A program made the position numbers and the translations under genes. A stretch of DNA of 64,000 nucleotides from Cytophagales bacterium (lineage in GTDB: Bacteria > Bacteroidota > Bacteroidia > Cytophagales > UBA9547): positions 1 through 64,000 of the forward strand of contig JAAFIH010000006.1 in NCBI GenBank assembly GCA_013297755.1, read 5' to 3'. Of this stretch, positions 21,426 through 60,931 are shown piece by piece. The notes beneath the pieces are model-generated. The model was not told where the DNA came from. It searched no databases and saw nothing but the letters and a program-made list of their open reading frames with translations. How positions within the stretch are numbered: position 1 is the first letter of the stretch; each line of letters begins with the position of its first letter.

Positions 21426-21561
21426 AATAACTGATTTTTTTCGGTTTAGATTCCTATTATTTTCATTCATTTTAGATTCTTTATGTTCGGCTTCATTGGC
21501 TGATATATTTCTAAGGTTTTCCCAGTTTCATTTTATTTATTTATCTCATTCTTTTACTGTT

Positions 21562-24500
21562 ATGTATTCTACATTACTAAAGGGTTTATTGTGTTTTCTA
21601 TTATTTTTTAGTTTTTTGATTGATGCACAAATTTTGGTTAAAGGCACAGTGTCTGATGGCAAAGAACCCATGCCTGGTGTTACAGTTTCGCAAATGGGTA
21701 CTGCCAAAGGTGCTATTACTGATTTGGAAGGTAATTTTGAGGTTACAGTTTCGGACACTTCGGCTACGCTAGTTTTTTTATATCTTGGCTACAAAACCAA
21801 ATCTATACAAGTAAAAGACAAGACCAAAATTGATGTTGTCATGGAAGAAGAATCGAAAGTACTCGAGGATGTAATGGTAACAGCCATTGCTGTAAGAAAA
21901 GAAAAAAGAGAGCTAGGATTTGCAGCACAAGAAATAAAAAGCCAAGAAATATTAGATTCTAAAGAAACAAATATAGTAAACGCTATGAATGCCAAAGTGG
22001 CTGGTGTGCAGGTGGTTTCGTCTTCGGGTTCGCCTGGAGCGGCAGCTCGTATTCGCTTGCGTGGCAACACATCTATCACTCAAAACAACGACCCCTTGTT
22101 TGTAGTAGATGGTATTCCTATCGACAATACAGGTGGCGAACGAACCAGAGATATTGAAAGCTCCAACAGAGCTATTGATATTAACCCAGACGATGTGGCT
22201 TCGATGACTATATTGAAAGGCCCAGCTGCTACTGCTCTATATGGTATTCGTGCGGCCAATGGTGCCATTATCATAACTACAAAAACTGGCCAAGCGGGCA
22301 AAACAACAGTCAATTTTTCGTCTTCGTTTGGAATTGATGAGGTAAATAAATTGCCTGAATTACAACAAAAATTTGCTGGCGGACAAAATGGTATTTTTAT
22401 ACCCTACGACCAACGTACTGGCAAACCAACTTCATCGTCTTGGGGGCCTGCTTATGGCGACCCATCTCTGCCCGAAGGAGTGAAATTTTATGACAATAGA
22501 TCTAAATTTTTTACGCTTGGTACACAAAGAAACAATTTTTTGAGTATTTCGGGTGGCACAGAAAAATCGACTTCTTACTTTTCTATTGGTAATTTCAGAC
22601 AAACGGGGGTTGTACCTAACCAAGATTTTGAACGCACATCGCTCAAATTATCTAATGCTACACAGGTGGCCAAGTTTTTGAAAATAACTGGGTCTATCAA
22701 TTACAATTTATCCACGGCTACAAGGCTTAGAAAAGGAGGAAACTGGTCGGCACCTATGATTTCTTTGTTCAGGGGGGCAAGCGATTTCGACATAACTGGT
22801 GGCTACAAAGACCCACTAAATACCCAAGAGGCTTATTTGAAAGCTGATGAGTTATCTCAAAAAACAGGTTCTGTATATGATAATCCATTTTTTTCGGTTA
22901 ATAAAAATAAAAATACAGAAACTATCAATCGAGTGATAGGATTTGTGCAGGCCGACCTTACTATTACACCTTGGCTTACAGGTATGGCTCGCATAGGTGC
23001 CGATGTGTACAATCAAGTACTGACCGAAAATTATGATAAACGCTCGGCCGAAAACCATGCTCAAATTTCTTATAAAGGCTCTTACTATGAAAGCCAACAG
23101 TTTAAAAGAGATTTTAATAGCGATTTGATGATAAATGCTCAACATAAAGTGGGCAAAGATTTTGAAGTAGGGCTTAGGCTGGGCCACAACTTTTGGAGTT
23201 CAAACAATACCAGACTTGGTGTTCAAGGATATAATTATTTGTTTCAAGATTTTTATGATTTCAATGCTTTGGATGTATCGTCTAGCCCACTACAACTTAG
23301 TCCAGCTTCCCGTAATAGCCAAAGAGCCATCATGGCGACTTATGCTGATGCTAAAGTAAGTTTTAGGAATTACGCCTTTGTCAATTTTACCACTCGTATG
23401 GAGCAAGCATCTACCTTGCCAGCAAAGAAAAACACATTTTTGTATCCTACCATAAACATTGCTTTGGTGTTTTCGGATATGCTTGGGCTAACCAATGGCA
23501 GCATATTTAGTTATGGCAAAATAAGAGCTGCATGGGCACAGGTGGGCAATTTGCCAAATCCTTACTTAACATCAAATTATTATAGACCTGTAGTATCTGG
23601 TGGTTTTAGTGGCCAAAATTTGTTTGCCATAGGTGGCGATTTGGGTAATCCTAATATCAAACCCGAAATATCTACCTCAAGAGAATTAGGGCTTGAATTG
23701 AAGTTTTTTAAAAATAGAATTGGGGTTGATGTAACCTATTATAATAATGTAAATACAAACCTTATCATGGTGGCAGATGTAGCCCCAACATCAGGGTTTA
23801 GTTCGGCTTGGGTCAATGGTGGCAAACTGAGAAATACTGGATTAGAAATAGTATTAAACAGTACACCTATCAAAACAAATGATTTTAGTTGGGATGCTTC
23901 CGTGAATTTTACATCGCAACGCACTATGGTAGAAGAACTTGTTGGAGATTTTCAATATGTAGGCGGTGGGGCTGGGTTCAACAATGGGTCTAATGCTGTG
24001 TTTGTAGGAAATCAATATGGGATTTTGACAAGCCCACAAAGATTTAAAAGATATGGCCAAGATCGCAACGATATTACCTTACGCAACGACTTGCCCATAG
24101 TAGTAGATGCTGCTGGCAATCCAATAAAAGAATCGCCTGACAAAGGTTTTTATATCATCGGCAATCCAAATCCAGATTGGTTTGCTGGTCTTAGAAATTC
24201 GATTAGCTACAAAGGTGTTTATTTCTCGTTTCTGTGGGATTTTAGAAAAGGGGGCGATTTGATAAACCTAACTCGTGGTAGCATGAACTTTTTTGGACAA
24301 CACAAAGATACCGAAAACCGAAACGATGCTGCTGTACTCGAAAACTCAGTATATGCCGATGGCACCAAAAATACTACTCCCATCAAAAAAGATGCTGCCT
24401 ACTATGCCATAGCTGGCGAAAACTCCAATGTGGGCGAACTATGGATAGAAAAAGGATCTTGGCTTAGGTTAAGAGAAGTTACTTTAAGGTATGCTTTTGG

Positions 24501-24696
24501 CGAAAATATTACTAAAAAAATGTTTATGAAAAATCTAAGCCTGGCTTTTACAGTAAGAAATGCTTTACTATTTACTAGCTATTCTGGTATAGACCCTGAG
24601 ACCAATGCTGCCGGCAACGACCCAAGTTTAGGAAAAGATGCCTACAATATGCCCAATACCAGAAGTTTTCTGATGACACTAAACGCTACTTTCTAA
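21562..24696 (+). CDS. SusC/RagA-type TonB-dependent outer membrane transporter
   Basis: I choose the ATG at 21562, because MYSTLLKGLLCFLLFFSFLI is a good signal peptide ending at DAQ; an upstream start would add 22 unlikely residues. The mature protein (about 1044 residues in all) starts with a carboxypeptidase-like regulatory domain (GTVSDGKEPMPGVTV). The plug with GSPGAAARIRLRGNTS and PLFVVDGIPIDN follows. The rest is a 22-strand-type barrel ending in an aromatic residue (LNATF). SusC proteins import oligomers through the outer membrane with a SusD lid. From its neighbours the likely cargo is cyanophycin fragments rather than glycan; that is inference. Confidence 0.92.
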   Translation: MYSTLLKGLLCFLLFFSFLIDAQILVKGTVSDGKEPMPGVTVSQMGTAKGAITDLEGNFEVTVSDTSATLVFLYLGYKTKSIQVKDKTKIDVVMEEESKVLEDVMVTAIAVRKEKRELGFAAQEIKSQEILDSKETNIVNAMNAKVAGVQVVSSSGSPGAAARIRLRGNTSITQNNDPLFVVDGIPIDNTGGERTRDIESSNRAIDINPDDVASMTILKGPAATALYGIRAANGAIIITTKTGQAGKTTVNFSSSFGIDEVNKLPELQQKFAGGQNGIFIPYDQRTGKPTSSSWGPAYGDPSLPEGVKFYDNRSKFFTLGTQRNNFLSISGGTEKSTSYFSIGNFRQTGVVPNQDFERTSLKLSNATQVAKFLKITGSINYNLSTATRLRKGGNWSAPMISLFRGASDFDITGGYKDPLNTQEAYLKADELSQKTGSVYDNPFFSVNKNKNTETINRVIGFVQADLTITPWLTGMARIGADVYNQVLTENYDKRSAENHAQISYKGSYYESQQFKRDFNSDLMINAQHKVGKDFEVGLRLGHNFWSSNNTRLGVQGYNYLFQDFYDFNALDVSSSPLQLSPASRNSQRAIMATYADAKVSFRNYAFVNFTTRMEQASTLPAKKNTFLYPTINIALVFSDMLGLTNGSIFSYGKIRAAWAQVGNLPNPYLTSNYYRPVVSGGFSGQNLFAIGGDLGNPNIKPEISTSRELGLELKFFKNRIGVDVTYYNNVNTNLIMVADVAPTSGFSSAWVNGGKLRNTGLEIVLNSTPIKTNDFSWDASVNFTSQRTMVEELVGDFQYVGGGAGFNNGSNAVFVGNQYGILTSPQRFKRYGQDRNDITLRNDLPIVVDAAGNPIKESPDKGFYIIGNPNPDWFAGLRNSISYKGVYFSFLWDFRKGGDLINLTRGSMNFFGQHKDTENRNDAAVLENSVYADGTKNTTPIKKDAAYYAIAGENSNVGELWIEKGSWLRLREVTLRYAFGENITKKMFMKNLSLAFTVRNALLFTSYSGIDPETNAAGNDPSLGKDAYNMPNTRSFLMTLNATF

Positions 24697-24720: not shown

Positions 24721-26151
24721 ATGAAAAATATATTTACAAAAACCGTTTTATTGGCTTTTTCCCTTGTTTTGATGGGTTGTGATTTTAGTAAATTAAACAT
24801 TGATCCCAACAATATTACTGGCGATAAACTATCGCTCAATCAAAGATTACCATCGTTGGAGTACTTTTTTGGTAATTATCTAGCCTCAGATGTGCCAAAA
24901 ACAATAAGCAACACTATGGGGCAGGTTGTGTATATACAAGGCAATGTTGGGCTCAATACTTATTCTTATGCAGCTGCTGATCCATCTAAAATGGCAATTT
25001 GGAACAATTTGTTTGCCAACGTGATGTACACGGCCGACCAAATCATACAAGAAGCTGATTTGAAAAAAATACCATATTATAGAGGTATTGCTAAAATTAT
25101 ATATGCCATTGGGCTTGCACACGCTACGGCCATTTGGGGAGATGTGCCTTATAGCCAGTTATTCAAAAATTCTGAATTTCCTAATCCAGTATTCGAAAGC
25201 CAAGAATCTATTTATGGAAATATACAAAAATTACTAGACCAAGCCATAGTAGATTTATCGACACCTGCCACTGGTATTGTACCCCTAGACGATGATTTTA
25301 TATTTAGAGGTAATACTGCCAAGTGGATAAAAACAGCAAATGCACTAAAAGCAAGATACTATTTGCATACCATAAAAGTAAGTAATTCGAGTTATGATTT
25401 GGCCGAAAGTGCTTTGGCAAACGCCTTGCAATCGAATGATGATAATTGCTTATTCAAATTTCAGATTGGCAACCCAGAACAGCAAAATCCATTGTATTCA
25501 GAAAGAGTTGGCACTCAAAACACCCAAATAGATGTAGCTTTTACAGATAATATGCGAGCAAAAAACGACCCACGTTTGCCATTTTATAGTACAGTACGCT
25601 CAAGTTTGGTTACTGGCCGCAGAGCACTCTATGGCCCATTGTATGCCTCCAGAGATTCGTATATTCCTATCGTAACTTACGAAGAATGTATGTTTATGAA
25701 AGCCGAAATAGCCATGTTTAAATCAGGAAAAGCAGCCGCAGAATCAGACTTTAGAAAAGCCATAAAAGCATCGCTAGAGCGAGTGTGTACCGAAAAAAAA
25801 TGGACTGCCGACTCTGGTGCTACTGCCCTAGCCACGATACCAATCACAAGTTCGGTTTTGGGTACATACATACAAGCACAAGGCAACTTAGATTCTATTG
25901 CTACTGACGAAGAGGTATGGAAACGCTTATTTGAACAAAAAAATATAGCCTTGTTTTTGCAAGCCGAAATATGGAACGACTACCGTAGAGCCACCAAATA
26001 TATAGCAGGAGTAGATGGTTTGCCACAAATTACGCCACGTACAGGCACTGCCATACCAAGACGATACAACTATCCATTTAATGAAGTAAACTACAACAAA
26101 AGCACACCAACCGACCCAGGTATATTTTCTAGGGTTTGGTGGGATAGATGA
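24721..26151 (+). CDS. SusD/RagB-family surface lipoprotein
   Basis: This 476-residue protein has a lipoprotein signal with lipobox LVLMGC, then FSKLNIDPNN, the usual start of mature SusD-like proteins. Helical TPR-like segments follow (AKIIYAIGLAHATAIWGDVPYS) and the C-terminal region contains WNDYRRATKY. It lies 24 bp after SusC, the invariant order for such pairs. It would cap the SusC barrel and bind substrate at the surface. Ligand is not predictable from sequence, and downstream genes point to cyanophycin. Confidence 0.9.
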   Translation: MKNIFTKTVLLAFSLVLMGCDFSKLNIDPNNITGDKLSLNQRLPSLEYFFGNYLASDVPKTISNTMGQVVYIQGNVGLNTYSYAAADPSKMAIWNNLFANVMYTADQIIQEADLKKIPYYRGIAKIIYAIGLAHATAIWGDVPYSQLFKNSEFPNPVFESQESIYGNIQKLLDQAIVDLSTPATGIVPLDDDFIFRGNTAKWIKTANALKARYYLHTIKVSNSSYDLAESALANALQSNDDNCLFKFQIGNPEQQNPLYSERVGTQNTQIDVAFTDNMRAKNDPRLPFYSTVRSSLVTGRRALYGPLYASRDSYIPIVTYEECMFMKAEIAMFKSGKAAAESDFRKAIKASLERVCTEKKWTADSGATALATIPITSSVLGTYIQAQGNLDSIATDEEVWKRLFEQKNIALFLQAEIWNDYRRATKYIAGVDGLPQITPRTGTAIPRRYNYPFNEVNYNKSTPTDPGIFSRVWWDR

Positions 26152-26278
26152 ATTGTTAATGTGTAAACATCCTTAAAATATTAAACTTTTTATTCAAGTC
26201 TAAAATGCAATAGGCTTGTCTTATTGTTGCATAAATCAATTTTATAACTATTTAATTAAACCTTTAAAAAAAAACAAA

Positions 26279-28282
26279 ATGAAAAATGTACTTCGATTGA
26301 TTAAAAAACAGACATTATTTGGAATACTGTCTGTCAGCTTAGGTGTTTTAGAAACGAAAGCACAAGAACCTATAATTACAGAGCAAAATTTGCCTTATGT
26401 AGTTAATTTTGGTACTGGGCATTTCAATAACTATCCTGCAGGATTAGCCACTTCTCGTGGTATTGCAAATAGTTTTAAAACAAACATTGCTGATGTTACG
26501 ACCTTTCCTGCAGCTAATTTTACTGAAACTAGAAGTTTATCAACAACTACACTTACTTCACCTTTATCAAATACCGTTGGAGGAAGTAATGTATCTGGAG
26601 GAGCTAACCCTCATAGCTACTTAGAAGGTGGAAACGATGCTAAGTTGTTAATTACACTTAGTACAAGACTTTGGTCTACTTTCTTTTCAGTAAAAACTAC
26701 TGACAATACAGATATTAAAATTGGCTATTCTTTGCAATTAACTGAAAGAGCTGAAAATAATGCCACTACATCACCTGGATTGAACTTAACAGCATATTTG
26801 CAATACAGAACAAGTTCAATATCAGGTTGGAATACAGTAATAGGTTCTGAATGGAATACAGAAAGTCTTACAGTTGGGGGAATTACCAATTTTAATTTAA
26901 CTTTACCTAGTAGTATAAATAATTTACCAAGAGTTGATTTTAGAATTGTTAATACTCAAACTGCTGGTGTTACAGTTTCTGACTTGTTGAGTTATGCTAT
27001 TGACAATATCTCTGTTACTGGCATACCTCCATTAGTAAATACAGTTACTGCTGTTGCTTTCAGGATTAAATCTGTAACCCCTACTTCTACAAGTGTACTT
27101 ACACAAGGTAAAGCATTTTCAGTTGAGGTAGAATCTATATCACAAAATGGTTCAACTTATGCAGTAACTTCTTCAGCAGGTTTTACATTAAGTGTATCGT
27201 CTGGGAGTGGTACACTTGGAGGTACTTTGACAGGGACTATTTTAGCAAGTACAACTAGTACAATTATTACTGGAATTACATATTCAAAAGGAGAGGTATT
27301 TACTTTGAGTGTAGTTTCTGTTTCTGGCCAACCTTTATTGTCTGCTAGCTTCGTTTTAACGATTGCAGGAGATCCATTGGCAGGTTTAAATGTTCTTTAT
27401 TCAGAAAATTTTGAAAACTTCAATAATGTACCAAAATTAAATAATTATAATGTTTCTGTTGCTGGAATGACTTCTTATAATATTGACAGAGCTGCGTTAA
27501 ATAGTGGGGGATCTCCAACATATGGAAATGCTGGATTTGTAGTTGTAAGAACAGCTAGAGGTCCTTGGTTTGGCAATGGAGCTGATAATATTGGAACTAC
27601 TACTTATTTTGACAATACAGGCTCAGACAATAAAGACTCTAATTTTGTTGCTGCTGCCACTTCTTACTTTATAAGCACTTCTACAGGTGCTAGTCGTTAT
27701 TTAGTTTTACCAGCAATTAATTTAGCTGGTAGTAATATTAAATTAAGTTGGCAAGCTATGTCTAGAGGCTCTTTTGCATTTAGAGATTCCTATAAAGTAA
27801 AGTATAGTGAAACAGCACCTTCAAGTCCATTTAATACTGAAGACTTTGAATTAATTAGCACAGTTCCTGGGGTTGCAGTAATTATAAATGAACCTTCAAG
27901 GAGAGTTACTAATCATTCAATAAGTATTCCAACTAATTTTGAAAATAAAATAATTTATTTCGCTTTTGAACTTTCAACACCTGGGCCTGGTGGCGATCGT
28001 ATTTTCTTAGATAATATTTTAGTTACTTCTGGTAGTTCTATTACTGGTTTTAATGAAAATACTCAAATGATTTCTACACCAATTCTTAAAGCCACTCCAA
28101 ATCCTGCTTCAGAATCTATCACTATACAATCGGCAGTTTCTGAAACTGTTAAAATTTATAACCTCATAGGTAATCAAGTTTTGACAGGTACTACAAATAC
28201 ATCTTTGGCTATTGGTTCGCTTACCAAAGGCATGTATGTGGCCGTTACTACCAAAGGAACTGTTAAATTTATTGTAGAGTAA
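26279..28282 (+). CDS. Large T9SS-secreted surface protein of unknown function
   Basis: I use the ATG at 26279 (about 667 residues), since MKNVLRLIKKQTLFGILSV leads into a signal peptide ending near TKAQ. The protein has three parts. The first is a beta-rich N-terminal region (to about residue 245) and the second an Ser/Thr-rich Ig-like stretch (about 250-370). The third is a choice-of-anchor J / cleaved-adhesin-like domain starting LYSENFENFNNVP. A T9SS type A sorting domain (ATPNPASESITI to the end) closes it. It sits directly after SusC/SusD and before the cyanophycinases, so it may bind polymer granules at the surface; no enzyme motif is seen. Confidence 0.75.
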   Translation: MKNVLRLIKKQTLFGILSVSLGVLETKAQEPIITEQNLPYVVNFGTGHFNNYPAGLATSRGIANSFKTNIADVTTFPAANFTETRSLSTTTLTSPLSNTVGGSNVSGGANPHSYLEGGNDAKLLITLSTRLWSTFFSVKTTDNTDIKIGYSLQLTERAENNATTSPGLNLTAYLQYRTSSISGWNTVIGSEWNTESLTVGGITNFNLTLPSSINNLPRVDFRIVNTQTAGVTVSDLLSYAIDNISVTGIPPLVNTVTAVAFRIKSVTPTSTSVLTQGKAFSVEVESISQNGSTYAVTSSAGFTLSVSSGSGTLGGTLTGTILASTTSTIITGITYSKGEVFTLSVVSVSGQPLLSASFVLTIAGDPLAGLNVLYSENFENFNNVPKLNNYNVSVAGMTSYNIDRAALNSGGSPTYGNAGFVVVRTARGPWFGNGADNIGTTTYFDNTGSDNKDSNFVAAATSYFISTSTGASRYLVLPAINLAGSNIKLSWQAMSRGSFAFRDSYKVKYSETAPSSPFNTEDFELISTVPGVAVIINEPSRRVTNHSISIPTNFENKIIYFAFELSTPGPGGDRIFLDNILVTSGSSITGFNENTQMISTPILKATPNPASESITIQSAVSETVKIYNLIGNQVLTGTTNTSLAIGSLTKGMYVAVTTKGTVKFIVE

Positions 28283-28308: not shown

Positions 28309-28430
28309 AGCCCTCCCTTTGGGGTTCTGTGCATCGAACAGAATTTACTAAGGGTGGGGTTTTAAAGATTCAGTTTATTCTCCACCTTTTTTTATAGTTC
28401 TGTGCATCGAACAGAATTTCTAAGGGTGGG
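28309..28430 (+). repeat. Pair of hairpin repeats between surface protein and cyanophycinase
   Basis: Two units share the palindromic core TTCTGTGCATCGAACAGAA (28325-28343 and 28398-28416). Each is framed by complementary arms (CCCTCCCTT / AAGGGTGGG and CCACCTTT / AAGGGTGG), so each can fold into a long hairpin. They fill the gap between two genes of the cyanophycin locus and may reduce read-through or stabilise mRNA ends. Confidence 0.7.
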
Positions 28431-28515: not shown

Positions 28516-30543
28516 ATGAAAAAGTTACTTGTAATATTCGCTTTATTGATTTTTGCTTCGCAAAACCTTTTTGCTATTTCAGGTAAACTTTTACTAGTGG
28601 GTGGCGGCACAGAACGTGATACTCCTAACTCTTGGAGTACACCTGCTTTCCAATGGGCTATCAACCAATCAGCCAACAAAAAAGCCTTGATTGTTCATTA
28701 TCAAACTACTTCTACTTTTTATCCAACCTACATGACTGGTCAGTGTGGAGCTATCGCTTCAAAAAATTTAATTATCGACAACACCAATGCAGACTTACAA
28801 GCGACTTTTGATACCATTATGAATTACGATTTTGTATTTTTCAGAGGTGGTGATCAATCACAATATTATAATTTTTATAAAAACACCAAAACTGCACAAG
28901 CCATACAAGCCAAATTCGATGCTGGTGGTGTCATTGGCGGTACATCGGCTGGTTTGCATATACTTTCAAAAGTGATTTACAATGCCCAAGATGCTTCTGT
29001 AACTCCACTCGAAACCATGCCCAATGTGGCCAACAGCAGCATTACACTTAGCGATGATTTATTCAATTTATTACCGGGATATGTATTCGATTCGCATGTG
29101 GCTGAGCGAGGCAGATTTCCCCGTTCGATTGGGTTTATAGCAAAATGGTTTAACGATACCAACGAAAAAATAAAAGCCTTAACTGTAGATGATATGACAG
29201 CCATGGGCATAGGCACTAACAATATAGGAACCGTTTTTGGCACTGGTGCTATTGGTATTTATGAAACCAAATCATTAAAACTAAACCCATTTTCGAGAAC
29301 AGGTAAAATGGTTGCAGATTCAATTTCTGTAAAACAGTTGCTTAACGGTTGGGTGTATGATTTTAACACACAAACCATCACAACATCAGGAGTGGTTTCA
29401 ACCACAGGTACTTTTGCTATTGAAACAAACCAAAGCACGGTAATGCTCTCTGGTGCAGACGATTTTGCTAATAATTCTAATTTTATTGCTCATTTTGTAA
29501 ATAATATTGGCACAAAAGAACTTCCTGTTGTGATTTTTTCGGGTACTGATACATCTGTTGCTCGACAGTTTAAAGTCAATATTTTATCGAGAGGGGCAAA
29601 AAGATGCAAAATCATTCGATTGATACCTTCTGGAATTGCAAACGCAACTTTGCTCGATACCATCAAACAAACCAATAAATTTATTTTTATTGGAAACACA
29701 TTGACACAATTAAATACTATTTTGGCAACAAACGGTATTGGAACTTTTATCAATACCAAAATTAGAGCAGCTGGCGTAGCCGTTGGTTTTGTAGGCAACA
29801 ATGCCCGCTTTGCTGGAAAAAGAGTGGTTAGTGATAATTATACAGTACAATATGCTGCCTACGATAATTTAATTCGCACAACAAAAGGCTTAGGTTTATT
29901 AACAAATACTATTATTTTCCCAAACGCTTTTTTTAACTCAAATACCAATGAAAATAGTGTTTGCACAATTCCTTACTTTATGGTTCAAGACACTGTTTTG
30001 CATGGTGTTTTGCTAACCAGCAATTCGTATTTAAAATATGCTCCTAAAGCAAACAACAAAGCCTATTTTACTTCCGATGGATTTCAGCCAGCCATTATTT
30101 TAAAAAATAAATCAAGTATAAAAACAGGATTTTCTAACACCACATCTGGAAAAACAGTTGGCATGAGTCCTCGCCAAATTGCAGGATTTGAAGAAATGTC
30201 GGTTTCGTTTTTAGATACTAACGCTAGGTTTGAAGTGGCAAATAATATTCCTTTCGCTCCAATAACAGATTCATTAAAATTATCTGTTTTAGAAAATGAT
30301 TACAAAAATATAAATGTTACTATTTATCCAAATCCTACATCAGAAGTTTTAAATATTATCACTAAAAATGTGAGTGAAATATTTGGCATCCAAATTTTTG
30401 ATATTACAGGTTCTGTAGTTTTTGAATCTCAAAAATTCACAAACCAAATTTCAACAGCTTCATTACCAAAAGGCATTTACATCATTTCTATAAAATCTAA
30501 AAAAGGAATTTATAAAAGTAAAATTATAAAAATTGATAATTAA
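28516..30543 (+). CDS. T9SS-secreted cyanophycinase with tandem degenerate S51 domain
   Basis: The ATG at 28516 (MKKLLVIFALLIFASQ signal peptide) gives about 675 residues. Domain 1 is a peptidase family S51 cyanophycinase: LLVGGGTERD at the start, FFRGGDQSQYYN in the middle and the nucleophile Ser144 in IGGTSAGLH. Later comes DSHVAERGR with the active-site histidine. Residues about 290-570 look like a second S51 fold (FIFIGNTLTQLN, then LGLLTNTIIFPN) whose nucleophile elbow has become AVGFVGNNA, so it is probably inactive. The last ~75 residues (VTIYPNPTSEVLNI to the end) are a T9SS type A sorting domain. It would cut cyanophycin into beta-Asp-Arg at the cell surface. Confidence 0.88.
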   Translation: MKKLLVIFALLIFASQNLFAISGKLLLVGGGTERDTPNSWSTPAFQWAINQSANKKALIVHYQTTSTFYPTYMTGQCGAIASKNLIIDNTNADLQATFDTIMNYDFVFFRGGDQSQYYNFYKNTKTAQAIQAKFDAGGVIGGTSAGLHILSKVIYNAQDASVTPLETMPNVANSSITLSDDLFNLLPGYVFDSHVAERGRFPRSIGFIAKWFNDTNEKIKALTVDDMTAMGIGTNNIGTVFGTGAIGIYETKSLKLNPFSRTGKMVADSISVKQLLNGWVYDFNTQTITTSGVVSTTGTFAIETNQSTVMLSGADDFANNSNFIAHFVNNIGTKELPVVIFSGTDTSVARQFKVNILSRGAKRCKIIRLIPSGIANATLLDTIKQTNKFIFIGNTLTQLNTILATNGIGTFINTKIRAAGVAVGFVGNNARFAGKRVVSDNYTVQYAAYDNLIRTTKGLGLLTNTIIFPNAFFNSNTNENSVCTIPYFMVQDTVLHGVLLTSNSYLKYAPKANNKAYFTSDGFQPAIILKNKSSIKTGFSNTTSGKTVGMSPRQIAGFEEMSVSFLDTNARFEVANNIPFAPITDSLKLSVLENDYKNINVTIYPNPTSEVLNIITKNVSEIFGIQIFDITGSVVFESQKFTNQISTASLPKGIYIISIKSKKGIYKSKIIKIDN

Positions 30544-30553
30544 ATTTTAAAAA

Positions 30554-30593
30554 CATTACGCATTACACATTATACATTACACATTACACATTA
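30554..30593 (+). repeat. Heptamer tandem repeat upstream of lipoprotein cyanophycinase
   Basis: Five and a half 7-bp units of the form CATTACG, CATTACA or CATTATA run from 30554 to 30593, ending 12 bp before the next start codon. The same repeat family occurs at 35885-36056 (reverse orientation) and 36696-36751. Confidence 0.85.
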
Positions 30594-30605
30594 AATTTTA
30601 AAACT

Positions 30606-31646
30606 ATGAATCTTAAATCAATCAGTGCCGGATTTCTTTCAGTTCTTTTGTTCGGATGTTCAAAAGAAGAAACATTAGTGAAAAACAATAATAATATGAG
30701 TGCTGCAGTGGGTTCAACCACAATGGGTTCGCTGGGTCGAATTGGTAGCACAACAGATGTGAGTCGTTCTACAACAGGTGGAACATTGCTTATGGGTGGC
30801 GGAACCGATGTAGATGCAGCCATGCGTTGGATGATTACCAAAGCAGGTGGTGGCGATATTGTAGTTTTGAGAGCTACTGGAACCGATGGTTACAATTCAT
30901 ATATTTTTGGTTTGCAAACTTGTAATTCAGTAGAAACAATTTTGATAAACTCACGAACCATTGCCAACGACCCAGGAGTAGAAGCCAAAATTCGTGCGGC
31001 AGAAGCTGTATTTATAGCAGGCGGAAATCAAGCCAATTATGTTAGTTTTTGGAAAGATACGCGTGTAGAAGATGCCTTAAATTTCTTACGCAACACAAAA
31101 GGCTGTGTAATTGGTGGTACTTCGGCAGGTTGTATGATTCAAGGTAGAGATTATTACATTGCTCAAAATGGCTCGGTACTTTCTGCGGCTGCTATGAATA
31201 ATCCATACAATGTAGATATGACTTTGGGAAGAAACGATTTCTTAAATAACCCTTATTTATCAAATGTAATTACAGATACCCATTTTGATAACCCAGACCG
31301 CAGAGGCAGATTAGTGTCTTTTATGGCTCGTATCAGCAGAGACAATGGTGTAGCTCCATCTGGTGTAGGCGTAGATGAAGCTACTGCCGTTTGTATTGAA
31401 GATAATGGTAGCTCACGTATTTTTGGCACAGGTTTAGCATTCTTTTTAAGACAAAATGGTTCAGTTCCAGAAACTTGTGTATCAGGTTCAAGATTAGATT
31501 GGTTTCGTTCACGCCAAGCTGTTCGTTGCTATAGAGTTGCAGGAACTGCAAATGGCACAAATACATTTAATTTCGTAAACTGGACTGGTACTGGCGGTGT
31601 TTCACAATTTTATTTTGTAGATAGAGGAGCTTTTGGAGTAAATTAA
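30606..31646 (+). CDS. Lipoprotein cyanophycinase (peptidase family S51)
   Basis: This 346-residue protein has a lipoprotein signal with lipobox VLLFGC (Cys18) and then a low-complexity Ser/Thr/Gly spacer. The S51 domain starts TLLMGGGTDVDAAM. AVFIAGGNQANYVSFW, the nucleophile Ser173 in VIGGTSAGCMIQG, the active-site region TDTHFDNPDRRGRL and GVGVDEATAVC follow. All match exo-acting cyanophycinases that release beta-Asp-Arg dipeptides. Membrane anchoring, probably in the outer membrane, separates it from the secreted enzyme upstream. No sorting domain is present. Confidence 0.9.
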   Translation: MNLKSISAGFLSVLLFGCSKEETLVKNNNNMSAAVGSTTMGSLGRIGSTTDVSRSTTGGTLLMGGGTDVDAAMRWMITKAGGGDIVVLRATGTDGYNSYIFGLQTCNSVETILINSRTIANDPGVEAKIRAAEAVFIAGGNQANYVSFWKDTRVEDALNFLRNTKGCVIGGTSAGCMIQGRDYYIAQNGSVLSAAAMNNPYNVDMTLGRNDFLNNPYLSNVITDTHFDNPDRRGRLVSFMARISRDNGVAPSGVGVDEATAVCIEDNGSSRIFGTGLAFFLRQNGSVPETCVSGSRLDWFRSRQAVRCYRVAGTANGTNTFNFVNWTGTGGVSQFYFVDRGAFGVN

Positions 31647-31653
31647 TTATTAC

Positions 31654-31690
31654 AGACATTCCAAGTTTTAAAAACTTGGAATGTCTAAAC
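31654..31690 (+). terminator. Perfect 16-bp palindrome (possible terminator)
   Basis: AGACATTCCAAGTTTT (31654-31669) and its exact complement (31671-31686) flank a single A, 8 bp past the stop of the lipoprotein cyanophycinase. The same architecture (AGAC...GTTTT, one base, AAAAC...GTCT) occurs at 20896-20928. It may be a partial terminator or a repeat family member. Confidence 0.55.
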
Positions 31691-31752
31691 CCGTTGTTAG
31701 TTGCACAGAGTCCATTGAAAAAGAAAAACATTAAATATTACGCATTAATCTT

Positions 31753-32583
31753 TTGAATAAAACATTTCTCTTACTTATTTTTTTAGTTTCAACCACATTT
31801 GCTCAAGGCAAATTGTTCATCATTGGTGGTGGAAAAAGACCAACTGCAATGGTTGAGCGAATGATTGCCGAAAGTGGCGTGGCTCAATCGGGCTATATCA
31901 TGATTTTGCCTTTTGCTAGCGAAGAGCAAGACAGTTCTATTTTTTATGCCAAAATACAATTTCAAAAAGTGGGCTTTACTTCTGTTTTTGGGTCAATTGT
32001 GGCTAAAAATCAAGTACTTAACAAACCATTTTTAGATAGCGTTTCTAATGCAAAATTCGTTTATATACCTGGTGGCGACCAAGTTAAATTTATGGACATT
32101 GTGAAATCAACAGGTTTGGATATTGCCATCAAAAAATGCTTTCAAAACGGTGGAATGATTGGTGGAACAAGTGCTGGAGCGGCTGTAATGAGCGAAAAAA
32201 TGATTACAGGTGTTGAACTAAACTATAAAAACACCACAGAAGAAACCGAAAAAGACGGCTTTAGAACCATTGAAGCGAACAATATTGAAATCTCTACAGG
32301 CTTGGGTTTTTTGAAAAACAGTATCATAGACCAACATTTTATTAAAAGAAAAAGACAAAACAGATTAATCGCTGTTGCTATCGAAAACCCAAATTTTTTG
32401 TGTGTAGGAATCGATGAAGCCACAGCCATTTTAGTAAAAAAAAATACCGCAGAAGTTATTGGCGATGCACAAGTTTTGACATTATTAAATACTGAGAAAA
32501 CCACTAAAAAAGATGGGAAATTATCAGCAAAAAATATAAAATTAAGTTTATATACTACTTCTCAAACCTTTAAAATAAAATAA
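31753..32583 (+). CDS. cphB: Cyanophycinase, periplasmic (CphB)
   Basis: This 276-residue protein starts at a TTG; no ATG lies between it and the upstream in-frame stop at 31732-31734, and the first residues form a signal peptide (NKTFLLLIFLVSTTFAQ). It is a canonical S51 enzyme: KLFIIGGG, YIPGGDQVKFM, the nucleophile Ser140 in IGGTSAGAAVMS, DQHFIKRKRQNRL and CVGIDEATAI. It hydrolyses cyanophycin or its fragments to beta-Asp-Arg. With no lipobox or sorting domain it should be periplasmic. Only 3 bp separate it from the transporter gene that follows. Confidence 0.92.
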   Translation: MNKTFLLLIFLVSTTFAQGKLFIIGGGKRPTAMVERMIAESGVAQSGYIMILPFASEEQDSSIFYAKIQFQKVGFTSVFGSIVAKNQVLNKPFLDSVSNAKFVYIPGGDQVKFMDIVKSTGLDIAIKKCFQNGGMIGGTSAGAAVMSEKMITGVELNYKNTTEETEKDGFRTIEANNIEISTGLGFLKNSIIDQHFIKRKRQNRLIAVAIENPNFLCVGIDEATAILVKKNTAEVIGDAQVLTLLNTEKTTKKDGKLSAKNIKLSLYTTSQTFKIK

Positions 32584-32586: not shown

Positions 32587-33996
32587 ATGCTAAAAAAACT
32601 TCCAGATACACTTGTTATTATTTCAGTAGTATTGCTTGCTTTTGCTATTTTTTCGTGGATAATTCCTGCTGGCGAGTTTGATCGTGTGGAGAAAAACGGC
32701 TATGTAATGGTTGTTCAAAATTCATTTCATAATGTAAAACAAGTGCCTCAAGGCATTGCCGAACTTTTTCAAGCTCCCGTTAAAGGTTTTGCTGAAACTG
32801 CCTTAGTCATCGCTTTTGTGTTGTTTGTGGGTGGCGTTTTTGGGGTTGTCAATAGCACAGGCTCAATAGAATCTGGATTGACATTGGTGTTGAAAAAAAC
32901 CGAAAAAAACCCAAAATACAAACGTGTAATCATTCCACTTTTGATGGTGTTTTTTGCCATCACAGGTGCAACTTTTGGCTTGAGCGAAGAGGTTTTGATT
33001 TTTGTTTTAATCACTATTCCACTTTGCGTGTCGCTGGGGTATGATTCGATTGTTGGCGTAGCGGTTCCATTGGTTGGCACTGCTATTGGTTTTGGTGGTG
33101 CAGTTTCTAATCCATTTACAATTGGAATTGCCCAAAGTATTGCCGAAATCCCACTTTTTACAGGTTGGGAATATCGCCTTTTTTGTTTATTGATTTTTTC
33201 GGTTTTAGGTATTGGCTATTTGATTTTTTATATGCAAAAAATTGAGAAAAACCCACTTTCTAGTCCTGTTTATGAGCTTGATAATATTTTTAGAGCCAAA
33301 ATGAAAGATGAATCAAGTATAGAAATGGATTCAAAACTCGCTTTTACGATGAGAAGAAAATTAGTTGTACTTTTATTTTTTATTACTATTGTTATTTTGG
33401 TGGTTGGCTCAACGGCATTGAGTTGGTACATCAACGAAATTTGTGCCTTGTTTTTGGGATTAGCCATTCTCACTGCCTTAGTTTATCAAATAAAAGCCAA
33501 CGATTTAATAGCCACATTCTTGGCTGGAGCCAAAGATATGTTGCCTGCGTGTTTGGTTATTGCTTTTTCTAAAGGAATAATCATCATCGCAACCGAAGGC
33601 AAAATCATAGACCCCATTTTGTTTTCCATTGCACATGCTTTAGAAGGATTTCATCCCGTAATGTCTGTCGAAATCATGTTTTTTATCCAATCCTTAATAA
33701 ATATTATTGTTCCTTCAGGCTCAGGACAGGCAGCACTAACCATGCCTATTTTAGCTCCTTTGAGCGATATTATTGGTATTACACGCCAATTGGCTGTGTT
33801 GATTTTTCAAATGGGTGATGGCTTAAATAACATGATTATCCCAACCAGTGGCGTAACGATGGGCACTTTAGCCATCGCAAAAATTCCATATCATATTTGG
33901 GTAAAATGGATTTTTCCATTGATGGCAATTTTGTTTATAACTTCTATGTTATTACTTATTCCACCAGCAACATTTATGTATTATGGACCACGTTAA
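32587..33996 (+). CDS. YfcC-family transporter (basic amino acid or peptide)
   Basis: This 469-residue membrane protein starts with KLPDTLVIISVVLLAFAIF followed by WIIPAGEFDR, the signature of the YfcC/ArcD-like family. Family-typical motifs are ITGATFGLSEEVLIFVLI, GAVSNPFTIGIAQ and a C-terminal PSGSGQAALTMP. About 12 hydrophobic helices are visible. Relatives are annotated as basic amino acid antiporters or C4-dicarboxylate/peptide carriers. Between a periplasmic cyanophycinase (3 bp upstream) and a cytoplasmic isoaspartyl peptidase (33 bp downstream), it most likely carries beta-Asp-Arg across the inner membrane; that is inference from position. Confidence 0.85.
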   Translation: MLKKLPDTLVIISVVLLAFAIFSWIIPAGEFDRVEKNGYVMVVQNSFHNVKQVPQGIAELFQAPVKGFAETALVIAFVLFVGGVFGVVNSTGSIESGLTLVLKKTEKNPKYKRVIIPLLMVFFAITGATFGLSEEVLIFVLITIPLCVSLGYDSIVGVAVPLVGTAIGFGGAVSNPFTIGIAQSIAEIPLFTGWEYRLFCLLIFSVLGIGYLIFYMQKIEKNPLSSPVYELDNIFRAKMKDESSIEMDSKLAFTMRRKLVVLLFFITIVILVVGSTALSWYINEICALFLGLAILTALVYQIKANDLIATFLAGAKDMLPACLVIAFSKGIIIIATEGKIIDPILFSIAHALEGFHPVMSVEIMFFIQSLINIIVPSGSGQAALTMPILAPLSDIIGITRQLAVLIFQMGDGLNNMIIPTSGVTMGTLAIAKIPYHIWVKWIFPLMAILFITSMLLLIPPATFMYYGPR

Positions 33997-34029: not shown

Positions 34030-34953
34030 ATGGCATATTCATTAGCAATTCATGGCGGTGCAGGTACGATGTCGAGAGCACAACTTACACCCGAAAAAGA
34101 ACTTTTATACCACAAGGCTTTGGAAAATGCACTCAAAGTAGGCGAAGATTACCTCATCAATGGCGGTAGTGCATTAGATGCAGTAGAGTTCACAGTTCGT
34201 TATCTCGAAAATGTAGATTTATTCAATGCTGGCAAGGGTTCTGTGTTTGGAAACGATGGCAAACACGAAATGGAGGCATCCATTATGTGTGGCAGAACCT
34301 TAAATGCTGGTGCTGTGGCTGGTATCAAAAATGTAAAAAACCCTATTCAATTGGCTCGTACCATTATGGTTGAGTCCGAATATGTGTATTTGCATGGCAT
34401 TGGAGCAGAAAATTTTGCTAAAAATTACCACATTCCTTTTGAAGATGATTTTTATTTTTTCACTCAAGAGCGATTCAATCAATTAAATGCCATTAGAGAT
34501 TCTGATAAAGTTATTTTAGACCATACAGACGTAGATTATAAATTTGGTACAGTTGGAGCAGTGGCGTTAGATAAATTAGGAAATTTGGCTTCTGCCACTT
34601 CTACAGGTGGATTAACAAATAAAAAATATGGCAGACTTGGAGATAGCTCCATCATTGGTGCTGGCACTTATGCCAATAATGCTACTTGTGCTATCTCTTG
34701 TACAGGCTATGGCGAATATTTTATCCGTTCGGTTGTGGCTCATGATATTTCATGTTTGATGGAATACAAAAATATGAGTCTTCAAGAAGCTAGCGAAGTG
34801 GTCGTTAAAGATAAATTAGTCAAAATGGGTGGAGAAGGCGGCATTATAGGTGTGGATAAAAATGGAAATATTTCCCTAACTTTTAACACCGAAGGTATGT
34901 ATAGAGGATATACATCAGAAAAAAATCCAAAATTAGTTACAAAAATATTTTAA
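34030..34953 (+). CDS. iaaA: Isoaspartyl peptidase / beta-aspartyl dipeptidase (Ntn hydrolase)
   Basis: This 307-residue member of the plant-type asparaginase family starts LAIHGGAGTMSR. It has VEFTVRYLEN and NAGKGSVFGNDG in the alpha part. The self-cleaving and nucleophilic Thr174 lies in KFGTVGAVALD, then ATSTGGLTNKKYGRLGDSSIIGAGTYA. Autoproteolysis before Thr174 should give alpha and beta subunits. The family cleaves beta-Asp dipeptides, including beta-Asp-Arg from cyanophycin, giving aspartate and arginine. No signal peptide, so it acts in the cytoplasm. One base separates it from the next gene. Confidence 0.92.
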   Translation: MAYSLAIHGGAGTMSRAQLTPEKELLYHKALENALKVGEDYLINGGSALDAVEFTVRYLENVDLFNAGKGSVFGNDGKHEMEASIMCGRTLNAGAVAGIKNVKNPIQLARTIMVESEYVYLHGIGAENFAKNYHIPFEDDFYFFTQERFNQLNAIRDSDKVILDHTDVDYKFGTVGAVALDKLGNLASATSTGGLTNKKYGRLGDSSIIGAGTYANNATCAISCTGYGEYFIRSVVAHDISCLMEYKNMSLQEASEVVVKDKLVKMGGEGGIIGVDKNGNISLTFNTEGMYRGYTSEKNPKLVTKIF

Positions 34954-34954: not shown

Positions 34955-35881
34955 ATGAACGTAGAAAATAAAGCATATACGGCTAAAGAAGTCGATTTTA
35001 CTATTAACGACATAAAAGATAGAGCCGAACCAAGAAATATTTTAATGGCTTCGCCAGAGTATTTTGATGTGGTGGATGTCAAAAATGTACACATGGCTGG
35101 AAATGCTGGAAAAATAGACAAAAAATTGGCACATATTCAGTGGAACGAACTAAAATCTGCTTTTAATCATGCTGTAAAAGAAGGAATTTTAGATAAAGTT
35201 TTAGTCATTGATGGAGCAAAAGATTGTGAAGATATGGTTTTTACTGCCAATCAATCTTTTCCTTGGATTGCCGAAAATGGCGACAAAATTGTAGTCATGA
35301 GTAAAATGCGTCACGATTCTCGCAAACGTGAAGTGCCTTTTTTTGAAGCCTATTATAAAAATTTAGGTTATAATACCTTGCATCTGACCCAAACTCAACT
35401 GTTTGAAGGCATGGGAGATTTGATTCCACATATTGGAAAACGCTTGCTCTATGGCGGCTATGGACATAGAACAAACAAAGATGCTTACAAGGAACTAGCT
35501 GCAATTTTACAAGTTCCCATTGTGGCTTTAGAACTTATTGACGAACGATTTTATCATCTCGACACTTGTTATGTTTCGCTTGGAAATGAGGCAGTTATGA
35601 TTTGCAAAGAAGCGTTTACAGATGAAGGTTTGTCCGTTTTGGCAAAATTATATAAACGTGTTTACTATATTCCAATATCAGAAGCCATAGACAATTTTGC
35701 ACTCAATGCACACACTGTTTTTGATTATAAAACCAATAAAAAAATGGTGTTTATCCATAAAGGAACAACATTTACATACAATATTTTGAAAAAAGAAGGC
35801 TTTGAAATCTATGAAGTCGATACATCAGAATACATGAAATCTGGTGGAAGTGTGTTTTGTATGAAGATGATGGTTTACTAA
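34955..35881 (+). CDS. DDAH/ArgZ-like guanidine-modifying hydrolase
   Basis: This 308-residue amidinotransferase-fold protein resembles dimethylarginine dimethylaminohydrolases and the arginine dihydrolase module of ArgZ/AgrE. Key motifs are MASPEYFDVVDV, VFTANQSFPW, LFEGMGDLI, YGGYGHRTNKDA and the catalytic histidine in FYHLDTCYVSL. The catalytic Cys302 is in SGGSVFCMKM. An arginine dihydrolase would turn arginine straight into ornithine, ammonia and CO2, feeding rocD in this locus. A citrulline or arginine deiminase-like activity is also possible. Operon with iaaA (1-bp gap). Confidence 0.8.
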   Translation: MNVENKAYTAKEVDFTINDIKDRAEPRNILMASPEYFDVVDVKNVHMAGNAGKIDKKLAHIQWNELKSAFNHAVKEGILDKVLVIDGAKDCEDMVFTANQSFPWIAENGDKIVVMSKMRHDSRKREVPFFEAYYKNLGYNTLHLTQTQLFEGMGDLIPHIGKRLLYGGYGHRTNKDAYKELAAILQVPIVALELIDERFYHLDTCYVSLGNEAVMICKEAFTDEGLSVLAKLYKRVYYIPISEAIDNFALNAHTVFDYKTNKKMVFIHKGTTFTYNILKKEGFEIYEVDTSEYMKSGGSVFCMKMMVY

Positions 35882-36753: not shown

Positions 36754-38007
36754 ATGATAAGTGTTACTTCAGAAATAGGGAATTTAAGAAAAATCATCAT
36801 TCATAGCCCAGATGATGGCATTGAGATGGTAACGCCTGACAAGGCTGTGGAATATTTGTATGAAGATATTGTGTATTTGGACAAAATGCGCAAAGAACAT
36901 ACTGTTTTCAAAAAAGTATTGGAGGCTTTTGTTGGTGCTGAAAATGTTTTGGATATTCAAAATTTAATTGCCGAGGTTTGCGAAATCGAAAAAGTAAGAA
37001 TAGAAATTATTGATGCCATTTCTAAACTTGAAAAAAAGTCTGAATTAAAAACATTTTTGAGCAAATTATCGCCAAAAAATTTGGCTTATACCTGCATCAC
37101 AGGCATTTTGAAATCAAACAAAAAAGTATTGTTTTCTCCCATTTCAAACTATATTTTTTGTAGAGATATTGGTGTGGTGGTTCATAATTATTTGCTTATA
37201 ACCCAAGCCATGAAAAAAGCCAGAAGCAGAGAATCGCTTTTGAGTTGGTATGTATATCATTACAGCAAAGTTTTTGAGTTGGTTCAACGCAACGATTGGT
37301 TTATAAAATTGTCGGAAAATACCAACGATTTGGTCGAAAACATTGGGCACAACGAAAACGAGCTTTCTATCGAAGGCGGAGATGTGATGACTTTTGGCGG
37401 AGATTATTTGTTGATTGGCTGCAGCGAACGCACCAGTCGCTATGCTTTTGATAAAGTTAAAGAAATTGTTTTTCATCGCAAAACGATAAAATATGTGGTG
37501 ATGGTCGAAATTCCGAAAGACAGATATTGCATGCATTTGGATACGATTTTTACACGAATTAGTAAAGACGAGTGCGTGGTTTTTGCTCCTTTGATTTTAG
37601 AAAAAGGTAAATTATTAATCAAGAAATTTGAAAAAGGAATTGCTGAACCAAAAGTATATGAATCGCTCAAAGATTTGCTCTTGGAAATCAATCCAAATAT
37701 GAAATTTATTGCTTGTGGAGATGGAAAATCTCCCTATCAAGAGCGAGAACAATGGACAGATGGCTGCAATTTATTTGCCATAAAATCGGGAGTGGCTGTA
37801 ACTTACGATAGAAATAAAGTAACCACACAAACCATTCAAAAATATGGCTATAAAGTAATAAAAGCAGAGCAGTTACTGGCAAAATTCAAAACCAAAGAAT
37901 TAACTCCCGAAAATGTAGAAAAAACACTAATATTGATTCCATCCAACGAGCTTTCGAGAGCCAGAGGTGGTACACATTGTCTTACTTTTCCTATTTTGAG
38001 AGATTAA
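36754..38007 (+). CDS. arcA: Arginine deiminase
   Basis: This 417-residue enzyme of the guanidine-modifying family converts arginine to citrulline and ammonia. The start VTSEIGNLRKIIIHSP, the NYIFCRDIGVV motif, SIEGGDVMTFG, the catalytic histidine in CMHLDTIFTR, WTDGCNLFAI and the nucleophilic Cys409 in RARGGTHCLTFP all match arginine deiminases. Length is normal. No ornithine carbamoyltransferase or carbamate kinase is seen in the window, so the classical three-enzyme route is not complete here. It shares the locus with a second guanidine hydrolase at 34955. Confidence 0.88.
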   Translation: MISVTSEIGNLRKIIIHSPDDGIEMVTPDKAVEYLYEDIVYLDKMRKEHTVFKKVLEAFVGAENVLDIQNLIAEVCEIEKVRIEIIDAISKLEKKSELKTFLSKLSPKNLAYTCITGILKSNKKVLFSPISNYIFCRDIGVVVHNYLLITQAMKKARSRESLLSWYVYHYSKVFELVQRNDWFIKLSENTNDLVENIGHNENELSIEGGDVMTFGGDYLLIGCSERTSRYAFDKVKEIVFHRKTIKYVVMVEIPKDRYCMHLDTIFTRISKDECVVFAPLILEKGKLLIKKFEKGIAEPKVYESLKDLLLEINPNMKFIACGDGKSPYQEREQWTDGCNLFAIKSGVAVTYDRNKVTTQTIQKYGYKVIKAEQLLAKFKTKELTPENVEKTLILIPSNELSRARGGTHCLTFPILRD

Positions 38008-38043: not shown

Positions 38044-38352
38044 ATGAATATTACCACTATTTTAAAGGCTTTCAAATCAAAAGTTCAATTGCTTTATGGA
38101 GACAATTTAGTCCAGCTAAAGTTATTTGGCTCATTTGCAAGAGGCGACAATAACAATTATTCAGATATTGATATAATGGTTTTATTACATTCTAAAGAAG
38201 AGAATAAAGAAGAAATTTTATCAGATATTTCATATTCTTTTTTATTGAACGATGAGGTTGTAATAAATGCTATTTCAGTAATAAAACACGACTTTGAAAA
38301 TTCTTGGAATCCACTTTATATTAATATCAAAAAAGAAGGAACTTTGATATGA
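38044..38352 (+). CDS. MNT-type nucleotidyltransferase (antitoxin)
   Basis: This 102-residue minimal nucleotidyltransferase has the signature LFGSFARGDNNNYSDIDIMV: the GSxxRG loop followed by the two metal-binding Asp residues. Its stop overlaps the start of the HEPN gene by four bases (ATGA). MNT-HEPN pairs act as toxin-antitoxin modules in which the MNT protein can AMPylate and silence the HEPN RNase. Located between arginine deiminase and pruA, on the same strand. Confidence 0.88.
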   Translation: MNITTILKAFKSKVQLLYGDNLVQLKLFGSFARGDNNNYSDIDIMVLLHSKEENKEEILSDISYSFLLNDEVVINAISVIKHDFENSWNPLYINIKKEGTLI

Positions 38353-38735
38353 ATAAGGATGACTTAATAAAAATTGTTTTATCAAAAGCAGATGATTCTT
38401 TAAAAGCTGCTAATTTCTTATACAATCAAAAATTGTTTGGGTCGAGTATTTCAGAGTCATATTATGCCATGTATTATTTGGCTCAATCTTGTTTGTATTC
38501 AATAGATATTACCTTTAAAACCCATTCGGCTGTTATTTCTGCATTCTCAAAAAACTTTGTTAAAGAAGGTTTGATATCCTTGCAATCAGGACGCAGATTA
38601 TCAAAAGCATTTGAGGAAAGAATAAAAAGCGATTATGAATTTACACATCAACCAACTAAAGAAAAAGCTAATGATCTGTTAAATTACGCATCAGAACTGT
38701 CCATTGAAGTTAAAAAATTATTATTAAAATCATGA
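38349..38735 (+). CDS. HEPN-domain protein (toxin partner)
   Basis: This 128-residue all-helical protein has ADDSLKAANFLYNQ and SISESYYAMYYLAQSCLY typical of HEPN domains. The C-terminal motif region SDYEFTHQPTK is where HEPN RNases carry their RX4-6H motif; the exact canonical arginine spacing is not clear, so nuclease activity is uncertain. It overlaps the MNT gene by four bases. The gene's 3' end runs into a decayed pruA fragment whose ATG overlaps its stop codon. Confidence 0.82.
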   Translation: MNKDDLIKIVLSKADDSLKAANFLYNQKLFGSSISESYYAMYYLAQSCLYSIDITFKTHSAVISAFSKNFVKEGLISLQSGRRLSKAFEERIKSDYEFTHQPTKEKANDLLNYASELSIEVKKLLLKS

Positions 38736-38797
38736 ACGGAATATTTAAAATACCATTTCCAGTAAACGAACCTAAGTTGCAATAAGCTCCTGGTTTC
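38732..38797 (+). pseudogene. Decayed 5' fragment of pruA (copy A)
   Basis: Translation reads NGIFKIPFPVNEPKLQ, stop, APG. The intact pruA at 41073 reads NGTFKIPFPINEPTLQFAPG. The fragment is about 65 bp, has several substitutions and a nonsense codon, and is followed at once by a palindromic repeat. It is a duplicated, non-functional piece of the gene start. Confidence 0.88.
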
Positions 38798-38868
38798 TAA
38801 CCCGTGGTCTGTGGCACACAGAACACTTTTAAAAAAAATATTAATGTTCTGCGTGCCACAGACCATGG
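38798..38868 (+). repeat. Palindromic repeat, full copy
   Basis: A 23-bp arm at 38802-38824 (beginning CCGTGGTCTGTGG) and its complement at 38846-38868 with two mismatches flank a 21-bp AT-rich centre. The first 50 bp (38798-38847) recur exactly at 40733-40782. Confidence 0.88.
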
Positions 38869-38898
38869 AGAGAAATACCCTCAAACATACAATCAAGT

Positions 38899-59972: not shown

Positions 59973-59977
59973 TTTTT

Positions 59978-60175
59978 ATGAAAAATAACGATATGATTTT
60001 TGATGATTTAGTAATTGAAGAAAAAGGAACTTGGACACAAGTATGTAAATCGTGTGCAGAAAAATCTAATGAATTAGGCTTTTTAGAAGAAATAGCAATT
60101 GAAGGATTAATCTGCGGAGTTGATGGTTGCCAAAATGAAGCACATTATTATTTAGATTTGAATAATGAGAAATAA
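59978..60175 (+). CDS. Small Cys-rich protein of unknown function
   Basis: This 65-residue protein has paired cysteines in VCKSCAEK and ICGVDGCQNEAHYYLDL that could bind zinc. I do not recognise the family. It begins 5 bp after the methyltransferase and overlaps the HNH gene by 11 bp, so it is part of the island operon. Confidence 0.65.
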   Translation: MKNNDMIFDDLVIEEKGTWTQVCKSCAEKSNELGFLEEIAIEGLICGVDGCQNEAHYYLDLNNEK

Positions 60176-60929: not shown

Positions 60930-60931
60930 TT

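Follow-up and report, generated by a model that had tools for sequence, protein, structure and literature searches.

The window analyzed here comprises 64,000 nucleotides (positions 1 to 64,000 of contig JAAFIH010000006.1, forward strand) of the Cytophagales bacterium assembly GCA_013297755.1, hereafter G000, and harbors three consecutive genes encoding S51-family peptidases, preceded by a SusC/SusD outer-membrane pair and followed by genes for arginine catabolism. Cyanophycin is a branched nitrogen-storage peptide of cyanobacteria, and we consider it likely that this locus scavenges external cyanophycin in the manner of a polysaccharide utilization locus (PUL), two S51 enzymes acting outside the cell, SusCD importing the products and a third S51 enzyme acting in the periplasm. 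Hereafter S51-1, S51-2 and S51-3 denote the window proteins, and S51_1, S51_2 and S51_3 the families to which they belong. All three genes lie on the plus strand. S51-1 (28516-30543; 675 amino acids) has its likely start at the ATG at 28516, the TTG at 28504 representing an upstream extension; S51-2 (30606-31646; 346 amino acids) is an S51 lipoprotein with C-S-K-E-E-T after its lipobox; and S51-3 (31753-32583; 276 amino acids) is an exported canonical cyanophycinase with a TTG start, as against ATG at the same codon in its ortholog from G001, a genome of the same genus. The three proteins exceed the Pfam cut-off of 23.9 bits for PF03575 (38.0, 41.7 and 75.5 bits, respectively), and since the whole 4.24 Mb genome holds exactly these three PF03575 matches, their clustering is not a matter of chance.

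An earlier reading, made from the sequence only, had described consecutive S51 genes that carry three differing targeting signals and all keep the GGTSAG nucleophile motif, and both observations were confirmed, the motif being present in S51-1, S51-2 and S51-3. The tail that this sequence-only reading had assigned to S51-1, a type A domain of the type IX secretion system (T9SS) at residues 603-672, stands above the curated cut-offs of both TIGR04183 (51.8 bits, cut-off 23) and the Pfam Por_Secre_tail (50.2 bits, cut-off 27), in a protein that also has a signal peptide. S51-2 opens with MNLKSISAGFLSVLLFGCSKEET, which contains a lipobox (LFGC), and S51-3 with MNKTFLLLIFLVSTTFAQGK, a plain Sec signal peptide; signal peptides and lipoboxes were assigned by eye. 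It has been worked out in Capnocytophaga, a flavobacterium, that C-X-K-(D/E)2-X is the optimal signal for lipoprotein export to the surface (PMC5080379). The start of mature S51-2 (C-S-K-E-E-T) and that of its ortholog in G002, another genome of the genus (C-A-K-E-E-T), both match this signal exactly, and because of this fit S51-2 is more likely to reside on the surface, beside the T9SS-delivered S51-1, leaving S51-3 periplasmic, a prediction which we treat as a lead. An automatic lipobox survey, which found Lys at +3 in 10 of 22 S51_2 and 0 of 8 S51_3 sequences (p 0.03), was left unused, some of its calls being false lipoboxes.

The catalytic and pocket residues were compared with the positions reported critical in CphB (Q101, S132, D172, Q173, H174, R178, R180, R183 and E201; PMC3235067). 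All nine are kept in 23/23 S51_3 homologues, window S51-3 included, and S51-3 also passes the curated cyanophycinase equivalog TIGR02069 with 148.6 bits (cut-off 126.6). Among the 13 S51_1 homologues, Q101, S132, D172, H174, R178, R180 and R183 are kept throughout, the catalytic Glu201 is Asp in every one, corresponding to D226 of window S51-1 and giving a Ser-His-Asp triad, and position 173 is always Ser or Thr, mostly Thr, with Ser in window S51-1. A triad with Asp does allow activity in another S51 enzyme, MccG (PMC9239234). The S51_2 homologues keep the triad (Ser-His-Glu in S51-2) together with Q101, D172, R180 and R183 in 40/40 sequences, and their position 173 is usually Thr, as in CphE and in S51-2 itself (Q173T). 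Arg178, reported critical in CphB (PMC3235067), is lost in 23 of the 40 and replaced by Pro in S51-2. With E201D in S51-1 and R178 lost in S51-2, cyanophycin activity is well supported for S51-3 only, whose residues are those expected of a textbook cyanophycinase; three equivalent cyanophycinases are thus not supported, and S51-1 (77.5 bits) and S51-2 (80.6 bits) do not reach the TIGR02069 cut-off. In comparison with CphB, the Synechocystis cyanophycinase (3EN0), S51-3 shares all nine residues and differs in being exported, whereas CphB is intracellular; S51-1 differs by E201D and Q173S, and S51-2 by Q173T and R178P. The extracellular Pseudomonas cyanophycinase CphE (PMC3235067) is likewise exported and has Thr for Gln173, as do S51-2 and most S51-1 homologues, but by its description it keeps Arg178 and the triad Glu and has a plain Sec signal.

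The layout of S51-1 consists of a signal peptide, an active-looking S51 domain (residues ~22-285), a degenerate S51-like domain (~298-600) and the T9SS tail. Residues 298-600 produced no Pfam match above threshold, S51 included, and for this reason the claim of a second domain rests on profile comparison and a profile search of the PDB. When a profile of this region built from 13 homologues was compared with that of the first S51-1 domain, the score was 31.0, and with S51_3 it was 33.2, as against maxima of 21.2 and 23.3, respectively, among 60 column-shuffled controls and of 17.5 for reversed profiles; its score against the S51_2 profile (19.1) did not exceed the shuffles (maximum 22.0). When an 11-sequence profile was searched against 177,635 PDB sequences, the cyanophycinase 7UQV ranked at the top with a weak E-value of 0.053, the match being collinear (5-170 versus 3-170). 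In the window protein, VGFVGNN stands where GGTSAG would be expected, and the DxHxxxRxRxxR motif is gone. On the strength of the profile scores, the 7UQV rank and the lost motifs, the middle third of S51-1 is very probably a degenerate second S51 copy, which is devoid of catalysis and probably assists in holding the polymer or serves as a built-in dimer partner. The predicted order of helices and strands resembles that of the first domain and was not counted as evidence, and the AlphaFold models were too poor for use (pLDDT 33.9 for S51-1, from 2 sequences; 45.6 for S51-2, from 5 sequences).

In a tree of 95 sequences, rooted by midpoint for drawing, S51_1, S51_2 and S51_3 each form a deep clade of their own (support 100/98, 100/99 and 99/93), with S51_1 and S51_2 as sisters (100/99) and S51_3 and CphB across the branch. 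Recent duplication in tandem is rejected as the origin of the three genes, each falling on one side of a well-supported branch.

The genes surrounding the S51 cluster, all on the plus strand, add an uptake system and a catabolic route. A SusC/RagA TonB-linked outer-membrane transporter (21550-24696; TIGR04056 624 bits, cut-off 368; start approximate, the open reading frame opening at 21496 with TTG) adjoins a SusD-like surface lipoprotein of the SusD-like_2 type (24721-26151; PF12771 158 bits, cut-off 27), the adjacency that marks a SusCD uptake system. Between the two SusD families searched, the genome yielded one PF12771 match, at this locus, and one PF07980 match, so that, judged from these two families, SusCD pairs seem scarce in it. 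The following choice-of-anchor-J protein with a T9SS tail (26276-28282; NF038128 41.8 bits and TIGR04183 27.2 bits, both over cut-off), which is far longer in G001 (1293 amino acids), is a candidate surface binder of the polymer. In the gap 5' of S51-1, at 28325-28419, an exact 22-base direct repeat, TTCTGTGCATCGAACAGAATTT, occurs in two copies 73 bases apart. Between S51-2 and S51-3 lies a hairpin with a near-perfect 15-bp stem and no T tract (31655-31685, no strand assigned), of a stability far above that of shuffles (RNA z -3.65, DNA z -7.7); a dispersed repeat is ruled out by its single copy in the genome, and a processing or attenuation element is possible.

Downstream of S51-3 follow a DcuC/YfcC-type inner-membrane carrier (32587-33996; PF03606 348 bits; NF008611 372 bits, under its cut-off of 500), which probably imports beta-Asp-Arg or the amino acids it contains, and a cytoplasmic isoaspartyl peptidase of the IaaA type, which lacks a signal peptide (34030-34953; PF01112 350 bits; NF007589 344 bits, under cut-off). 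Next come an arginine-dihydrolase/dimethylargininase-like enzyme (34955-35881; PF19420; NF052232 155 and NF045659 160 bits, both under cut-off), an arginine-deiminase-like enzyme (36754-38007; PF02274 196 bits; TIGR01078 254 bits, under its cut-off of 489), an aldehyde dehydrogenase that is probably a 1-pyrroline-5-carboxylate (P5C) dehydrogenase (41073-42698; PF00171 321 bits) and adjoins the arginine-deiminase gene in G001, and a class-III aminotransferase, probably an ornithine aminotransferase (43447-44670; PF00202 407 bits). Since several of these enzymes fall under their NCBIfam equivalog cut-offs, the exact activities given here are the presumed ones. An insertion of about 3 kb (38044-40692) separates the arginine genes in the window, while in G001 the P5C dehydrogenase gene stands directly after that for arginine deiminase; it contains a nucleotidyltransferase/HEPN pair and a pair of AAA ATPase and DUF4276 genes matching the PADLOC candidate defence system HEC-01 (588 and 174 bits). 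A PIN-domain (VapC-like) gene (43032-43430) also lies between the P5C dehydrogenase and the ornithine aminotransferase.

The locus recurs in relatives in varying forms. Within the genus, G001 has the order SusC, SusD, anchor J protein, S51_1, S51_3, YfcC, IaaA, dihydrolase, arginine deiminase and P5C dehydrogenase, and G002 (contig REAG01000222.1 of a Cytophagales metagenome-assembled genome) has SusC, SusD, anchor J protein, S51_1 and S51_2 up to the contig end. In five genomes of a genus from another family (g210), one locus holds S51_1, SusC, SusD, a lipoprotein, S51_3, IaaA, YfcC, S51_2 and an ornithine aminotransferase, the last gene being 59-61% identical to the aminotransferase of the window. 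The targeting signals of S51-1 and S51-2 are swapped between g210 and the window: a T9SS tail was present in 4/4 g210 S51_2 proteins scanned (43-51 bits) and in neither of the two g210 S51_1 proteins scanned (E up to 0.5). Five further regions in other orders, chosen solely for two S51 genes within a few kilobases, all (5/5) contain SusC/SusD genes together with a single S51_2 gene and a single S51_3 gene, which brings to six the number of families in which SusCD occurs alongside an outer S51 enzyme and an inner one. In loci that have YfcC, IaaA is without a signal peptide, and the IaaA of two loci lacking YfcC (G116 and G559) carries one, a pattern that fits YfcC as the dipeptide importer.

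A contig scan of genomes with a single query sequence found three loci. The signal-peptide IaaA genes of cyanophycin-type loci without YfcC lie in L200 (7525-8571) and L203 (8853-9917), which suggests that the dipeptide is cleaved in the periplasm there. In Hymenobacter sp. BT18 (L073, 9908-12106), two S51_2 lipoproteins stand in tandem and no SusCD or IaaA was found nearby; from this pair, the S51_2 clade may serve other roles too.

The sequence itself shows the gene content, the targeting signals, the catalytic residues and the synteny, and from them we infer the substrate, the locations and the order of steps, which would run as follows. The T9SS-displayed S51-1 and the lipoprotein S51-2, probably flipped to the outer face, would shorten insoluble cyanophycin outside the cell, the dead second S51 domain of S51-1 helping to hold the polymer or acting as an internal dimer partner. 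SusCD would import the resulting oligomers or dipeptides, periplasmic S51-3 would cut the incoming pieces to beta-Asp-Arg, and the YfcC-type carrier would bring the dipeptide inside, where IaaA would split it into Asp and Arg; the two guanidine hydrolases, ornithine aminotransferase and P5C dehydrogenase would then convert Arg to ammonia and glutamate. The genes of the full pathway occur in order in both the window and G001, and, as in the definition of a cyanophycin utilization locus (PMC10206079), a cyanophycinase gene clusters with those for an isoaspartyl dipeptidase and a transporter, with no CphA1. The earlier idea of scavenging with SusCD import placed between outer and inner S51 enzymes is supported by the recurrence in six families and by the three clades within the single g210 locus.

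Three other explanations were weighed against scavenging by two outer enzymes and one periplasmic enzyme. Turnover of the cell's own cyanophycin could be considered because three relatives bearing S51_1 and S51_3 (G033, G399 and G422) have the cyanophycin synthetase CphA1; in G000, which is rated 100% complete, all three S51 proteins are exported and no full synthetase was found (best TIGR02068 match 121 bits, cut-off 850), nor did G001, G002 or any of the five g210 genomes yield a CphA1 over cut-off. Such turnover is extremely improbable, and in the absence of a CphA1 over cut-off we rejected it. The sequence-only reading had instead distributed the enzymes over three compartments (surface or secreted, periplasm-facing membrane and soluble periplasm), acting sequentially on cyanophycin, a scheme favored by the three differing signals and the presence of SusCD. 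Against this, S51-2 carries C-S-K-E-E-T, a surface-export signal (PMC5080379), because of which a split into two outer enzymes and one periplasmic enzyme is likelier; S51-1 and S51-2 belong to sister clades, with S51-3 separate from both; in other genera the T9SS tail has changed places between S51-1 and S51-2; and the G001 locus does without S51-2. The three-compartment scheme is thus unlikely, and the last two observations also speak against the fixed role per enzyme that it implied.

It is somewhat more plausible, and still doubtful, that only S51-3 (perhaps also S51-1) is a cyanophycinase, S51-2 being a recent acquisition that acts on some other isoaspartyl or arginine-rich peptide and lies in the locus by coincidence. 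The change of R178 to Pro, at a position where Arg is missing in most S51_2 homologues, would agree with this, as would the absence of S51-2 from G001 and its solitary occurrence in many genomes of the order; yet S51_2 accompanies SusCD and S51_3 in the five class-level regions and in 5/5 g210 genomes, its triad and the residues Q101, D172, R180 and R183 are invariant, and members with and without R178 are both found in such loci. Several points also weigh against the scavenging scheme as we favor it. S51_2 is dispensable, being absent from G001; S51-1 and S51-2 fall short of TIGR02069; R178 is frequently lost; and because most S51_2 genes of the order outside these genera lie alone, that family may have other substrates. 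The SusC proteins of loci outside the genus have just 24-38% identity to the window SusC, so that SusCD-S51 loci may have been assembled separately, and the surface-export rule is that of Capnocytophaga and may not hold in the order of the host.

Beyond the window, we tentatively propose a class-wide Bacteroidota system for SusCD uptake of a peptide polymer, for which the case is suggestive and short of even odds: an outer enzyme of the S51-1/S51-2 clade would work with an inner S51-3, the outer enzymes would swap T9SS and lipoprotein anchors from one lineage to another, and in tandem S51-1 the dead domain would bind cyanophycin or replace a dimer partner. Cyanophycin utilization loci are already described, and the window locus is an elaborated variant of them. 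Those of Salinivirga cyanobacteriivorans L21-Spi-D4 (Ben Hania et al. 2017, via PMC10206079) and Flammeovirga pacifica (PMC10206079) belong to Bacteroidota as well and, for scavenging, group cyanophycinases with a transporter and an isoaspartyl dipeptidase; in Salinivirga, a T9SS cyanophycinase occurs alongside a plain one (PMC6243061). As far as those descriptions go, the window differs in having three S51 proteins of three deep clades, IaaA in place of IadA and full arginine catabolism; it also has SusCD, the Salinivirga locus being taken here from the description in the citing paper. With the SusCD-based PULs for glycans the locus shares the SusC/SusD pair, surface enzymes outside and a trimming enzyme in the periplasm, but its enzymes are peptidases for a branched peptide, and no carbohydrate enzyme was recognized among the locus proteins. 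In the alphaproteobacterium Citromicrobium (PMC3400609), a TonB-dependent receptor adjoins a cyanophycinase and cyanophycin was proposed as its substrate; this is one receptor with one cyanophycinase, without SusD, T9SS or multiple S51 proteins being reported. PMC11573002 names cyanophycin and SusD in passages that do not link the two. The new parts are the three-clade S51 set with swapped signals, the class-wide pairing with SusCD and the tandem S51 protein.

If the scavenging scheme is true, the PUL logic of surface cutting, SusCD import and periplasmic trimming would extend from glycans to a branched peptide, and the genes by which Bacteroidota could recycle the stored nitrogen of cyanobacteria would be named. 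The same three clades with swapped export signals would further provide an unusual natural experiment on whether an enzyme's role is set by where it resides or by its type, and the IaaA found here is relevant to the Bacteroidota isoaspartyl dipeptidases, which have been called undiscovered for many CphA1-bearing genomes (PMC10206079).

Two other regions of the window deserve mention. At 58950-62523, two C5 cytosine methyltransferases flank genes resembling those of an HNH endonuclease and a small nuclease, forming a probable type II restriction-modification island. At 17094-17729, a gene that, read by eye, has the appearance of a REP-associated Y1 transposase lies just downstream of low-complexity repeats.

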